The notes under the pieces were generated by a model, which saw only the letters and a program-made list of their open reading frames with translations, did not search any database and was not told the origin of the DNA. Both the position numbers and the translations under genes were made by a program. DNA of 64,000 bases, from contig CM045733.1 in assembly GCA_024760905.1 (NCBI GenBank), positions 41,341,001 to 41,405,000 of the forward strand. Direction: 5' to 3'. Positions within the stretch are counted from its first letter, which is position 1, and the number at the start of each line of letters is the position of its first letter. This document shows positions 2,105 to 43,903 of this stretch, piece after piece. The DNA comes from Plotosus lineatus. Lineage: Eukaryota; Chordata; Actinopteri; Siluriformes; Plotosidae.

Positions 2105-2940
2105 AGTAGACAGTATGTGGTTAAGTCAAAACATTCAAGCTTTCTTCACTATAAATGAAGATTTATGACTATGGTGTTATATAACCCACAAGAGAAAGGT
2201 GGATCTGAGAACTGCCTTTACAGAAATAAAAAGGAAAACAAATCCAAAAGTTGTGATTTGAATATACTGTATGTACTTCAGTAACAAGTTATGTTAAACA
2301 AATTAGTTTCTGAAACAATCGCTCACTGAGAATATCACTGCCATCAAACAACACATCAAAGTAAATAGCTCAAAATTGAGCAAAAGGGGGTTATGCCAGC
2401 ATGTGGGGCTCTGAAATTCAGCATCATGCATTATCAGAATAATGCATTGCTGCAGTTATCAAGAGAAGTTCCTTAATGCCAAATAATCCTCACCTGCAAT
2501 TTCTGAAACCAGACAAAGTGATTAATAATAAACACAGAAACCTCTATCTGTGAATAACTGTAGACTAAATAAGGCCGTCAACAGCAATTGTCGGCAGCTG
2601 TACCAATAGTCTAGTTGGCTTCTGGTTGAACTGATGACAAGACCAAGCTAATTTGAGCTTTCTTGCAGTTCTGCAGAGCTTGAAGACACAGACTACAAGT
2701 GGGCCCTGTTCTGCACTGCCATTAAGGTGGTGTTACAGAATTACGACTGTAAGGCTGCTGGTGTTTTTCATGGATAAGCATTTTAGCTCAGTGGTTAAGC
2801 TGTTAATGTCCAAGTGACATTGACTAGATGGTAGTACTGCATCTGAATGTTACTGTCAAGCCAAGAGAAGGGGAAGCAGTGCTGTATCCATCTGTACTGA
2901 ACTTAAGTGTGGAGGTACCATGCATCCCCAATGTATAAAT
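2105..2940. other. Intergenic, nothing recognised
   Basis: AT-rich unique-looking sequence with no long ORF, terminal repeats or RNA gene that I can support. Confidence 0.5.
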
Positions 2941-3748
2941 ACCGTATTCGACGTGATAAGCACTCAGGGTGCTTTAAAAATTGGAGTGGGTGGGCGCTTA
3001 TTAAAATGTTGCCAGTGGAGTGGAACGGTAAGTGTTTATTACCATCGAGGTGGAAAACATGAATAATAACAGAACAATAAAAGAGTTTTACTGGTATTTG
3101 TGTTATTCATTTTGTGCTATCAACCAAACTACTTTTACTTATGAAAACTGAAAATAAACCGAAAACAGCATAAATTAAAAAAAAAAAAAAAAACCCTGAC
3201 TTTTCCCACCCAGTGCTGTTCCTTTAAAGATTTTCCCGGAAGTAAAATCAATCCAATCAACACGAATGTCAACTTTAGCACATGGCACGTTGAGCCAATT
3301 AACATGAACATAAACAAGCACATGGCCAGGAACGTCCTTAAATTTATGAAGTTAGTGAGCAGGAGAATCGCGTTCTGATAGGTCCATATCTGGCTCATTG
3401 CTCCATTCATTCAGAGCATCCGATAGTTCTGCTGTAGCAGTTTCTAATGGTTCATCAGATGTTTGACAGTTACCAAGAGAAAACACGGCGGAACAGTCAA
3501 ATGTGTTGTTACTGATGAACATTATAGACATTCCCCAGTGGCAGGGGTCTTGAAATACCGTGTAAACTCAGTTTTACAGGCAGTGAACGCCTCATTTTAC
3601 GGTTACAGAGACTGACCGAATAAAATTGGTAAGTTTGATCTACCATTTTGCTCCCAGTACACATTGGTGGTTATTGGACGTAAGATCAAAAACACTGGGG
3701 GAGGGGGGGCGCTTATTGTAGCAAGATGCTTATTACATCTGATACGGT
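2941..3748. mobile_element. MITE family P, complete copy
   Basis: It starts ACCGTATTCGACGTGATAAG and ends with GATACGGT, the inverse of ACCGTATC, giving an imperfect TIR of about 20 bp. The body matches 42725-43515 closely (shared blocks include GTGGGCGCTTATTAAAATG and GAGTGGAACGGTAAGTG). A broken minus-strand ORF (3135-3410) corresponds to a longer one in the second copy whose acidic tail reads NEWSDEPDMELSESDDEY, suggesting the end of a former transposase. ACCGTATT termini resemble pogo-group MITEs. This copy preserves the target sequence interrupted by the transposon at 37733-42716. Confidence 0.8.
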
Positions 3749-4538: not shown

Positions 4539-4927
4539 ATCATCATCTTCTTTCGCTTATTCTGGGGTCGGGTCACGGGGACAGCAACCTAAGCATTGAG
4601 GTCCAGACATCCCTCTCCCCAGTCACTTCCTCCAGCCCTTCCGGGGGGAAGGGACATCGAGGCATTCCCAGACAAGCTGAGCAACATAGTCCCTCAAGCG
4701 TGTTCTAGGTCGATCCTGGGGTCTCTTCCGGGTTGGACATGCCCAAAACACCCCACCAGGGAGGCATTCTGACCCGATGCCCGAGTCACCTCAACTGGCC
4801 CCTCTCAATGCGGAGAACCACTGGTTCTACTCCGAGCTCTCCCCGAATGGTTGAGTTTCTCACCTTATCTCTAAGAGAAACACCACTCGGCAAAAGAGTT
4901 CATTTCAGCCACTTGTATCCGTGATCT

Positions 4928-37596: not shown

Positions 37597-39337
37597 AGTT
37601 CTGCCTTCATCAAAAATCAATTTTGATGAAGTGTCAATAGTTTTTGTGTTATTGATGTTGGTACCGACAGAGCTACCTCACCATACAAATATAACTGAAC
37701 ATACCGTATTTGACGTGATAAGCACCCAGGGCTAGGGTGGAGTGAAAATTGTGAAAATTTTAATTTTTGATTATTTTTTTTACTTGGAATAGCAATAAAA
37801 ACATGTGGAGTGGTGTCATCTAAAAGATGACAAGATAAGTTGATATCTTAGGCTCCCCCAAGAGCGATGAAAATGACCACATTTAATTCTGTTATAGTGA
37901 TCCAATTTTCTTCTCTATCATCAAAAACATATTTTAGGCAGTTTGGCACAGTGATAACATATATGTGAGGCGCTCCTCCGAAAGTACGCGCTTGTCACAC
38001 AGACCACTTTTGAGATAAAGGCAAGAAAAGTAAAAATGGTCCATTTTTATCTAAATTCGGATTTTTGCATAAACTATTAAAACAAGTATTGAACTATCAC
38101 TTGCTCACGTGAAATTGACTAAAACTCACTAAAAATGTCTTTTTTCCCCCCATTTTTCTGGTGAGTACCGTCATAAAACTAGGTATAAGAACAGCAGTAA
38201 AACTTACTGGTTTTCGTTGGAATTATTCACCGAGTTCAATACAAGACACACTATAATCCATAGTGCGTTTTGGATACTGTTTTGATACTAAAATGCTGTT
38301 TCAGTGAACAAAATAAAGGTTATGAAGACGATATGCTCGTAAACAATGCAGGCTAGTTGCTAAGGAAGATCTGAAACGAGTACACTGATTGGTCAGCTCG
38401 GGCTTGCACAAGCGCAGTGCCCATTACACGTTAACTTCCAGTGTTAACTTCTGGTTTACTGCATGCGGAATTTATCTCCGACTTTCTCTTCAATAACAGT
38501 CATTAAGTTTCTTTATAAGATTGTGAATACACATAATTTCTGGAAAAGGAGAGTGAAATGTCATCTGTGATGTCTACCAGCATTAGTATAGATGTTAAAT
38601 TCGACGCGAGGATTGGGCTTTGAAGTTGCCGGAATGCTTGGCGTTCTTGAAGATTATTTCACCAGTGAGTATTTTTCTCTGCATGCAAAATTTGATTAAG
38701 GAATTTTTTTGATTATGTGATTTGTGTGTAATCTTGTCTGGACTGGACATGCTGGATCGTGGTTTTTTTAGTTTTGTACAAAAATTGGTCATGACCTGAA
38801 AAATACTTAAATGTTTCATTCCTTTTACAGATGAACAAACTGATGATAATGATGATGCCAGCTGTGTTGATGAATATTTTGATTTTGATGTTGATGAAGA
38901 GGCATCTGTTAATAAACGTGTGCATGAGTGGTGTTTGTGATGATGTGATCCTTTCTGCTGAGCAGGATATAGATTAAGATAATAATGCTGAGGACAGAAT
39001 TGATGACGCTTACGTGTATACAGAGATCAGAGTTTTGTTATATAGTTTTCTTATATACAGTTTTCTTAATTTCAGTGTGATTGTTTAAACCTGACAGTGT
39101 CTTTTTTTTTTTCAAATCAGTATCATTTGAAGGCATTTGAACTTTTATATTATGGTCAAAAAGATACATACTGATCTTATTGGAATAAACAGAAATGAAA
39201 AAAATAGTCGGTTTTTTTTTCATTCAGGGGGGTTGCTACAGTGACTGATGGGTTTAAAAAGGGCCTGTCAGATTAAAATCCTCCGATTTCTCTTATCATC
39301 TCTTCCGAAAACTTTTCCTAGACATGTTTTCTAAAAG

Positions 39338-39676
39338 GGTGAGAAGCTCCGCCATCCGGGGAGAGCTCGGAGTAGATCCGCTGCTCCTCCGCATTGAGAG
39401 GGGCCAGTTGAGGTGGCTCGGGCATCTGGTTAGAATGCCCCCCGGACGCCTCCCTGGTGTGGTGTTTCGGGCATGTCCAACCGGGAAGAGACCCCGGGGT
39501 CGACCTAGAACACGCTGGAGGGACTATGTCTCTCGGCTTGTCTGGGACCGCCTCGGTGTCCCCCCGGGAGAGTTGGAGGAAGTGGCTCGGGAGAGGGATG
39601 TCTGGACCTCTTTGCTAAGGTTGCTGCCCCCGCGACCCGACCCCGGACTAAGCGGAAGAAGATGAGATGAGATGAG
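39338..39676 (+). mobile_element. LINE family X 3' fragment nested in transposon 2
   Basis: The 339-bp insertion has a perfect 14-bp TSD ATGTTTTCTAAAAG (39324-39337 and 39677-39690). It encodes a LINE C-terminus (QLRWLGHLVRMPPGRLPG, GKRPRGRPRTRWRDYV) and ends in (GATGA)n. It matches the inverted 3' region of LINE X copy 1 at 4540-4800. Its GC-rich, undecayed sequence contrasts with its surroundings and indicates a recent event. Confidence 0.92.
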
Positions 39677-40304
39677 ATGTTTTCTAAAAGTTTATATGGC
39701 TGAGGTACATAAAAATGTTTCGTTGCTAAAGACTAATGATCTTGGAAGAAGGGCAAACTTTGGGCTCATTTTTCTCTAAAATGTCTTTTGAAATTTTTAG
39801 TTGAATGCTGAAACAAATGGCATAGCTCAGTAAGTTTTCAAGGTACTGACAAAGTTTTTGCTGCATTTTGCAGCTTTGGGCCTACTTTGTCTGACTGTGT
39901 AAGAAGCTCATTTTTGGATGCAAGAGCCTACTTTCGGTGGAGTGGCTCACATATTGTCTCAAAAAAAAACATACACATATTGAGATGAGTCAATATGACT
40001 GTCACATATTGAAGTCTCGTGTTGTCTCGAAAACTGGCATTTTTGCCCTCGACTCCAGTCTTGTACGGATGAAGCTGTCTCATCGATTGTTGCCACATAC
40101 AGACTGTGATGCCTCAGTCACCACCTTGATGCACCTCTCCACAGGCTGTGTGTGTCATGGCTATCTGTCAAATGTGACGATAGGCGTAGTGGTTCTCGTA
40201 TGAATTCTCGGAGGTCATCGTTGCTGATACTCATTGTGACAGGTGGCTCAGTCACTCACACCATCGACCAGTCGAGCATTGTGGTATAGTCTGTGCAGTC
40301 AAAG

Positions 40305-42215
40305 TTAATCGGTGACACTGAACTCTCGAACAGCCTTCCTCTTTGGCTGGTCTCGTGCCTTCAGAATTCGGCGGAGGGCGAATTCACGAATGTGTAGTTG
40401 ATTGTCAGTCATCATGGACAGCAGCAGGTTTTCGGGGTGAGCAAAGCAGCTGTTGCGCTGGATGACAGGGTCCACGACAGCCTTCAGTTCATCTGTCAGG
40501 TACCGCGAGTTCTTGATCATCATGAACAAATGTCTTGCTCCATCATTACATGATGGCTTTTGCTTGATGTTGAACCATATCGGAGCACACATGCGAATGA
40601 TGAACATGACGATGGTGACCAAAGTGTCAGATGGATTTTCGCATCCCACGTACAAGCGCAGCAAGCGATTAGCTGTGGTCAGCCATCTTGAGTAATTGAG
40701 AACGCCTGGGTTTCTTAAAAACAGATCTCTCGAACAGTCACCACTGGAAACTGCTTGAGTGATTTCGTACAGATACCTCTGATACATACTGAGGTCGCGA
40801 GGGTCAACGTGTGGCAGGTCAGTCTCGACTGGTCGGTATTCATTGACAGGCAACTGTTTGCACTTGTTTAATGCTTTGCCGAGTGTTCCTGGAAATCCAC
40901 ACGGTCCCATCGTTGCACCATCAAGAGACTGGAACAGATGTTGAAGTGGCAGCTCGTGTGCATAAAGTAAGCACACCAGCCATTGCAAGGGGCATTTCAC
41001 TTTGAGTTGAAGCAGGCGTATCACACCACCTGTTCGGCCGGTATTCACAGCTGTGCCATCACAACCGACGATGGTGAACTCCTTGAGGTCCGTCTTGCCA
41101 ACCAGTGCGGCTGTCATTGCTTCAACGATGCTCTTGCTGGAGCTACCCTCTGGTGTTACATGGCAATAGTACGTTGATCCTGGCTCTCAGACGATAACAA
41201 AGTGTTCCTGGGTTATTTCGTCACGATGATATTTTCCTGTGTCAGCTTTAACGTTAACTAAAGTCTTGTCTTTGTGGCCATCAAAATATAACCCAGGGAG
41301 GCTCGGATCAGACTCAACTTGCTGATGTAGTTTCTCTTGCTTTGCACTTTGCTTCAGTCGATGATCATTGATGAGTCATCAGATGTCACAATGTCTAACT
41401 CGTGCAGTACTGTGGTCGTGATGGAGGCTGCTGTTCGATCCAACAATCCATATCTGTTGCAAGCCATCGCCGTGGCCGGTAGCTTCACTCTCATCTGTGT
41501 CTTCTTCATAGGGTTTTTTTGGTGAGGGTGGAAAGGTAAATGATATGTCACCTGGGTTGTCTCTATCATCATCGCTGTCATCATCAGCAATAATTATATC
41601 ATTGGCAATGTTATCAGCTACATTTGTAATTTTATCGGTACGTACTCTGAGTGATTCCCTTTCAGCGGCCTTGCACTTCTGATGCTTGAGTATTCTTGTT
41701 TTCTCTTTCATATCTACTCCTCCTATGCTCATTTTTCTTTCACCTCTCTGATCCAGTAAAAATGGTACCTCCTTGGCTGGAACTTTCCGTGATTTGTCAC
41801 AAGTACATTTGTCAGGACATTTGCAGCTACAAATGTCAAACAAATGGTCTGCCTCGTATCGAAATGTGTCAATTCGGCTGATGTAGCTGTGGCTGTCCTT
41901 TCTACTCTTGTATGGCTTGAGAAGATTCATGAATTTTGTGTGGTACACCTTCAATAACTGGACGGCTCGTTTGTACGACACAGTTGGTATCGAGGCTTTA
42001 CTCCAAATGTTGATGACATCAGTGATCACGATATCGGCGACATCAGTGAATGATGCCCGATACTTTTTTTGTTTCTCTGTGAGTGTATGTGCAGACAGGA
42101 GGTAGAACTTCATAACATCGCTGTACGTAGGAAGAACATTGGCTGGAAGTTTTACTGGAGCACCGAATACCGGACAGACCGGTGGAGCGCTTTTCTCTCT
42201 CGTACCTTGAGCCAT
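40305..42215 (-). pseudogene. hAT-like transposase gene 2, one frameshift and one stop
   Basis: It starts at ATG 42215 (MAQGTREKSAPP), just after an acceptor-like TTTTATATCAG. N-terminal blocks parallel gene 1: LPANVLPTYSDVMKFYLL, NIWSKASIPT, HLFDICSCK. A Cys-rich insert with CSCKCPDKCTCDKSRKVP is absent from gene 1. Then come FLLDQRGERKMSIGGVDMK (compare SMLGIDMK in gene 1) and an acidic linker. The core has LYFDGHKDK (putative first Asp, about 41280), a TGA near 41190, GCDGTAVNTGRTGGVIRLLQ (second Asp), LVCLLYAHELPLQHL and NYSRWLTTANRLLRLYV. The frame shifts near 41380-41390. Conservation with gene 1 is clear in order but low in identity, so they are different families of one group. Confidence 0.75.
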
Positions 42216-43553
42216 ATCTGATATAAAACCAAAACAAGAAAATATTAAATAAAATAACATCACGGTTATCAAGATATGGTCCGCAAGTGTTACTAGTACA
42301 TTAGGCCTAGTTGTGACACAATTTCAAAACCGCAAACCAGTTATTTAGTGCTAAAAAAGCAGATTTGACCTAATTTCACAAAGAAACGGAAAAGAGAGTT
42401 CAATCTTCTTTCCGGTGTGTGATGCTGTCGTCACCTTGTGATAGTTTCCTCTACTAAACTACTGAGTCCTGACCTTTCCAGTCATACCAAATCTGTGAAC
42501 TGTGAATGTTCTAATTTTTTAGAGTTATTCCCTTTGTCAACAACCGCATGCTCTCAAAATCGATTCAACATACCTTATTTTAAGTGAGTTGGGGGAACCT
42601 AGAAATTTTTTTTACAGATTTTTAATATTTTGCATATGCTTATAACTGGTATTGTTCCGTCTTTTGTACACTATCCGGAATTGATTGTGAAAAACTATAT
42701 GTTACACTCCACCCTACCCAGGGCGCTTTAAAAATTGGAGTGAGTGGGCGCTTATTAAAATGTTACCAGTGGAGTGGAACGGTAAGTGCTTATTACCATC
42801 AAGGTGGAAAACATGAATAATAAAAGAACAACAAATGAGTTTTACTGGTATTTGTATTATTCATTTTGTGGTATCAACCAAACTACTTACATGAAAGCTG
42901 AAAATAAACAGAAAACAGCATAAATTAAAAAAAGACCCCTTACTTTTCCCTCCCGGTGCTGTTCCTTTAAACATTATCCCGGAAGTAAAATCAAGCCAAT
43001 CAACACAAATGTCAACTTTAGCACATGGCACGTTGAACCAATGAACACGAACATAATAAAAGCACATGGCAAGGAACGTCCTTAAATTTTTGAAGTGAGC
43101 AGGAGAATCCGGTGAAAAATACTCGTCATCACTTTCTGATAATTCCATATCTGGCTCATCGCTCCATTCATTCAGAGCATCCCATAGTTTTGCTGTAGCA
43201 GTTTCTAATGGTTCATCGGTTGTTGGACATTTACCAAGAGAAAACAGCAAAATATTTTCCTGTTTGTTAAAGCACATCGGAACAATCAAATGGGTTGTTA
43301 CTGATGAACATTATAGACATTCCCCAGTAGCAGGGGGTCTTGAAATACCCTGTAAACTCACTTTTACAACAGTGAACGCCTCATTTTACAATTACAGAGA
43401 TTGATCGAATAAAATTGGTAAGTTTGATCTACGTTTTTGCGACCAGTACACATGGGCATTATTAGACGCAAGATCAAACACATTGGGGCAGGGCGCATAT
43501 TACGTCGAATAGGGTAATTAAAATTATCTAAAGTGTATATGGACAGACTTTAC

Positions 43554-43744
43554 CATTCATGGAGCACTTTTTGTTCCAGAGCCAGGGAAACACAGGACCG
43601 AGTTCTTTGGCATATTCCTCTTCATAATACATAAGGAGTTCCTGTCCAGGGTAAATGGGTTGACAGCAGCGATACAGAATTCCCCCTTGATACTGAAATG
43701 CCACAAGATTCTTTTCTTCATCATTATGAGCACAATTTACATAC
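43554..43744 (-). CDS. prdm9: PRDM9-like exon: C-terminal PR/SET domain
   Basis: A 191-bp exon with acceptor CATTCTTTTAG before 43744 and donor GTAAAG after 43554. It encodes [18 protein letters not shown], then [20 protein letters not shown] and a [11 protein letters not shown] stretch. This is the post-insert half of the PR/SET methyltransferase domain, including two tyrosines (in ILYRCC and MYYEEEY) that correspond to catalytic residues of PRDM9. The protein trimethylates histone H3 Lys4 and Lys36 and, with its zinc fingers, places meiotic double-strand breaks. The reading phase joins exactly to the exon at 43904-43971 (ATG AG|G TAT). No zinc-finger exon follows within the window. Confidence 0.93.
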
Positions 43745-43903
43745 CTAAAAGAATGAGGCAAATGGCAAAAAAAAAAAGTTAAAAAGTAAGACCAGCGTGA
43801 CAGACCAAGATAAAACATGGGCACTATATTAGATACAGAAAGATGTATATAAAGTCATTCCAATAAATCAGGAACTGCACTCGACAACTGGTGTATTTCT
43901 CAC

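Follow-up and report, generated by a model that had tools for sequence, protein, structure and literature searches.

Is the 5-kb insertion in a 64,000-nucleotide stretch of the Plotosus lineatus genome (contig CM045733.1, positions 41,341,001–41,405,000 of the forward strand, referred to as a whole as the window) a single transposon, as an original prediction had it, and to which group of transposases does its gene belong? The locus very probably holds a dead copy of a cut-and-paste, hAT-like DNA transposon, a host element of 2,994 bp with one transposase gene and a Hermes-like manner of working, which lies in a high-copy repeat of about 0.8 kb (the outer repeat).

Boundaries and composite structure of the insertion

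The features of the locus, including terminal inverted repeats (TIR), target site duplications (TSD) and a fragment resembling a long interspersed nuclear element (LINE), are as follows.

nt 2939–3705 (+): uninterrupted paralog of the outer repeat, with the empty site CTCAGGGT
nt 37701–37732 (+): left part of the outer repeat (interrupted target)
nt 37725–37732: left 8-bp TSD, CCCAGGGC
nt 37733–42716 (-, strand of the transposase): hAT-like DNA transposon, inserted span 4,984 bp; host element 2,994 bp once the nested element and one copy of its TSD are taken out
nt 37733–37744 (+): 12-bp TIR, downstream "B" end
nt 37961–37964: left TSD of the nested element, ATAT
nt 37965–39950: nested TIR element, 1,986 bp, ends GTGAGGC.../...GCTCAC
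nt 39338–39676 (+): short LINE-like fragment, with a 14-bp TSD, ATGTTTTCTAAAAG, at nt 39324–39337 and 39677–39690
nt 39951–39954: right TSD of the nested element, ATAT
nt 40005–42215 (-): broken transposase gene, with frameshifts and, within the aligned range, 10 in-frame stops
nt 42705–42716 (-): 12-bp TIR, upstream "A" end
nt 42717–42724: right 8-bp TSD, CCCAGGGC
nt 42725–43493 (+): right part of the outer repeat

The TIR TAGGGTGGAGTG has only these two matches in the window at up to one mismatch (0.29 expected by chance; 3 of 100 shuffles likewise gave two), and the TSDs outside the two ends are identical at 8/8 positions. When the flanks are joined with a single TSD copy they align with the uninterrupted paralog, about 34 kb from the insertion, at 84% identity (686/818 columns, E 0.0) and without a gap at the junction, where the paralog carries its empty site. 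This continuity, which the original prediction had proposed to look for, proves the boundary; the insertion is confirmed as real and correctly bounded, and the predicted 12-bp TIR, 8-bp TSD and coordinates are borne out at both ends. Of the paralog as first delimited (nt 2941–3748), the final ~43 bp are unmatched, the alignment ending at nt 3705. Proof by an empty site had also been called rare, which does not hold: a genome search for the outer repeat gave 6,781 first-look candidates, and all 40 that were scored match (one being the window itself), so that an empty paralog is to be expected, yet it still proves the boundary. The label of miniature inverted-repeat transposable element given to the outer repeat was based on short, imperfect ends judged by eye; the repeat search listed no inverted repeat within it.

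The figure of 4,984 bp stands as the inserted span but not as the length of one element, since nt 37965–39950, together with one ATAT copy, form a later insertion of 1,990 bp within the host transposon. It is very improbable that the whole span is a single large transposon from which the other copies have lost this stretch by internal deletion. Internal deletions do occur elsewhere in many copies, but the stretch, which sits between the transposase gene and the left end, is absent from the others: among 34 copies traced end to end (see below) none matches it, and 29 align across its insertion site with no more than 3 extra letters, rejoining at one point. Seven of 11 inspected junctions read exactly AACATATATTGTC and four are one base off; the remaining five copies (L016, L020, L032, L045, L061) give no alignment across the site. 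The stretch also has a TIR and TSD of its own, its ends reading GTGAGGCGCTCC... and GTGAGCCACTCC... between two copies of ATAT (a TSD of TA with ends TGTGAG... is an equally good reading), and it belongs to an independent and far more abundant repeat (2,682 first-look candidates; in 35 of 40 scored, the match starts at its first base). Three copies of this family have both ends in view, with equal 4-bp flanks in L069 (AATT) and L066 (ATAT), not in L070. Across the family (nt 37965–39950; L063–L071) the ends read GTGAG[G/C]C..CTCC.CCGAAAGTAGGC, and the TSDs are apparently 4 bp and A/T-rich in two of the three.

The LINE-like fragment, of which an 84% copy lies at nt 4864–4543, is presumed to be of LINE origin from its repeat tail and TSD rather than by a database match. 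In five of nine inspected copies of the nested family (L065, L068, L069, L070, L071) position 1373 joins 1710–1713 and the fragment is lacking; L066 jumps from 1240 to 1710, and the other three end short of the site. Since there are host copies without the nested stretch and nested copies without the fragment, the outer repeat was there first, followed in turn by the hAT-like element, the nested TIR element and the LINE-like fragment. The locus illustrates how a composite insertion can be mistaken for one transposon.

Copies of the host element in the genome

The genome searched measures 1.33 Gb in 30 contigs, and the window is part of contig 6. The terminal 20-mer TAGGGTGGAGTGAAAATTGT, taken from the "B" end at nt 37733, occurs in it 94 times without mismatch, and its reversed control not at all. 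From these, 50 distinct loci were sampled, with the copy in the window and any place met a second time excluded; both ends were in reach in 34 and not in 16. With the outermost ends taken whatever the TSD, the flanking octamers are identical at 8/8 positions in 15 loci, at least 7/8 in 25 and at least 6/8 in 27, against 3, 15 and 83, respectively, of 1,122 cross-locus control pairings. Taking the best pair per locus, with two repeated places included, gives 26/36. The genome search advised in the original prediction therefore finds other copies with the same TIR ends and 8-bp TSDs. In many inspected copies (among L001–L031) the ends share 15 bp (TAGGGTGGAGTGAAA); in the window copy a single difference at position 13 of its upstream end (nt 42700–42716) shortens the TIR to 12 bp. 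Three loci carry more than one "B" end in the same orientation (two in L028 and L038, three in L057), with a pair lying 143–150 bp apart, as if the end had been duplicated or alternatively used.

Many copies carry internal deletions whose junctions recur near element positions 925/2748, 295/2541, 250/2280 and 374/1821; this suggests a few non-autonomous subfamilies that may in the past have been mobilised by this transposase. For the 29 copies that had a qualifying partner, identity to the nearest neighbour is 86.6–92.6%, so no recent burst is seen in this sample. At the protein level, 65 matches to the transposase were found from 60 of 386 candidates scored, none of which covers the whole transposase free of stops.

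The transposase and its likeness to hAT

The broken gene is 71% identical to an uninterrupted relative of 746 aa (P0002) over the whole length of the latter. Relatives number 83 in one search and 544 matches in another, and they form a coherent family of about 750 aa in which every named source is an animal, with insect, crab and hagfish relatives among them. None of the 83, nor of the 120 listed from the 544, has a precomputed Pfam domain, and those that bear names are called uncharacterised, hypothetical or unnamed; for this reason the family is probably passed over when repeats and genes are annotated. The window copy is a degenerate member of this large, unlabelled, hAT-like transposon family. 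The transposase had been described as unfamiliar, which is true insofar as the sequence libraries tried miss it, but not otherwise, given hundreds of relatives and a Hermes/hAT-like predicted fold, residue set and target preference.

Several traits agree with hAT. The TSD is 8 bp long (7–8 of 8 positions identical in 25 of 34 copies, 8/8 in the window), and the TIR begins with TAGGGTGG, which fits [T/C]AGNGNNG, a consensus described for plant hAT elements in PMC6027215. Among the 25 sampled TSDs, 21 fit nTnnnnAn (T2 in 24, A7 in 22); for comparison, so do 8.3% of the 8-mers from the opening 300 bases of the loci. In the predicted fold an RNase H core is broken by a helical insertion domain, and structure comparison with VIA places Hermes first among the 50 matches listed. 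Candidates for the five hAT key residues (D, D, R-W, E) and CxxH, matched by order, are conserved in the same order in 58–60 of 60 relatives; in P0002 the candidates are D320, D394, R518-W519 and E702.

From fold, residues, ends and TSD, the family would be expected to use Hermes-type chemistry, a sequence of end nick, hairpin on the flanking side and strand transfer that is established for hAT according to PMC4763223, which also reports that CxxH is important if Kat1 is to form hairpins and is present in other superfamilies. The transposase, most likely a Hermes-like DDE enzyme of RNase H fold with a helical insertion domain, would by analogy have cut at the TIRs, nicking the end first; hairpins would then form on the flanking DNA, and strand transfer would join the ends 8 bp apart, preferably at nTnnnnAn sites. 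The TAGGGTGGAGTG-ended transposon entered the outer repeat and duplicated 8 bp; later, the TIR element with its apparent 4-bp TSD entered the 3' non-coding part, and the LINE-like fragment the TIR element.

A number of results weigh against kinship with hAT. The TSD of the window copy and four of the 25 sampled ones do not fit nTnnnnAn, and the residue equivalences come from order and conservation, not superposed coordinates. In Foldseek the top-ranked solved chain is the P element (6p5a, E 4.6e-3), no match attains 1e-3, and the 50 matches listed of 324 do not include Hermes. Pfam has no match to the two transposase ORFs (open reading frames) of the window; the matches to the 60 relatives, here and below as 25 of 51 families listed, are scattered, e.g. 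COR-A in 2/60 (E 0.00055), DDE_Tnp_1_7 in 1/60 (E 0.00032) and hAT-like_RNase-H (PF14372) in 1/60 (E 0.072). A profile built from the 60 relatives retrieves no PDB transposase up to E 10, where that of a genuine, ZBED4-like hAT family finds Hermes at 1.2e-9, and its profile-profile comparison with that hAT family gives a probability of 0.2 percent. Neither zf-BED nor the hAT dimerisation region (PF05699) is found in the window ORFs, in seven relatives or among the families listed; in the control P0085 the former scores E 0.00051, just under the curated cut-off, and the latter matches at 5.4e-15. As the sequence link is lacking where genuine hAT controls succeed, the element is not filed as a member of hAT, only as hAT-like in its working. 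The transposase has the look of a remote hAT relative, most likely hAT-like in mechanism but too distant in sequence for the hAT profiles that were tried.

As to neighbouring and related genes, one locus (L072) has an uninterrupted, ZBED4-like, hAT-derived reading frame of 584 aa, probably a domesticated gene, which is 48–89% identical to its ray-finned fish relatives (157 matches, of which 120 are listed); the closest listed are those of Ictalurus punctatus (89%) and Silurus (85%). Adjoining the interrupted repeat, an ORF at nt 43528–43824 (-) matches the PRDM2 PR domain in Pfam (PF21549, E 8e-19), and is possibly a PRDM9-like exon.

Rival classifications and comparison with known systems

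A separate eukaryotic transposon superfamily, sharing core fold and 8-bp TSD with hAT through deep common descent or convergence, is a possible though less probable classification. It accords with the missing sequence-level link and the missing BED and dimerisation domains, and with a Cys-rich, helical N-terminal domain for which the fold search gave no confident solved match; the predicted fold, ends and target preference described above are hAT-like. It overlaps the hAT-like reading, the difference lying less in mechanism than in rank and name. A somewhat more tentative proposal is a sister lineage to hAT among animal DNA transposons, as yet unnamed and of superfamily rank, which would have kept Hermes-type catalysis and target choice and replaced the BED finger by a Cys-rich helical DNA-binding domain.

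Membership in the P superfamily or in KDZ (Zisupton-like) is unlikely. P elements make 8-bp TSDs, and one ranks first in Foldseek; yet none is among the VIA matches listed, headed by Hermes, the P element TIR differs from TAGGGTGGAGTG-type ends, and no THAP match occurs among the Pfam families listed. The Cys-x-Cys pairs near the N-terminus may resemble the CxC domains of Zisupton/KDZ. No KDZ family is among those listed for the 60 relatives, KDZ having been compared by Pfam only. An 8-bp TSD is common to Zisupton (PMC12730594) and the present element.

Hermes and other hAT elements combine a BED finger with Dimer_Tnp_hAT, whereas this family matches neither and has the Cys-rich N-terminal domain instead; nor does it show profile-level sequence similarity to Hermes or to the ZBED4-like hAT family. 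Its preferred target, nTnnnnAn, is that of Hermes; TcBuster uses nnnTAnnn. If the family is hAT-like, it shows how far sequence can drift without a change in the ends, the TSD length or the target preference, and that the domain which recognises the ends may be exchanged.
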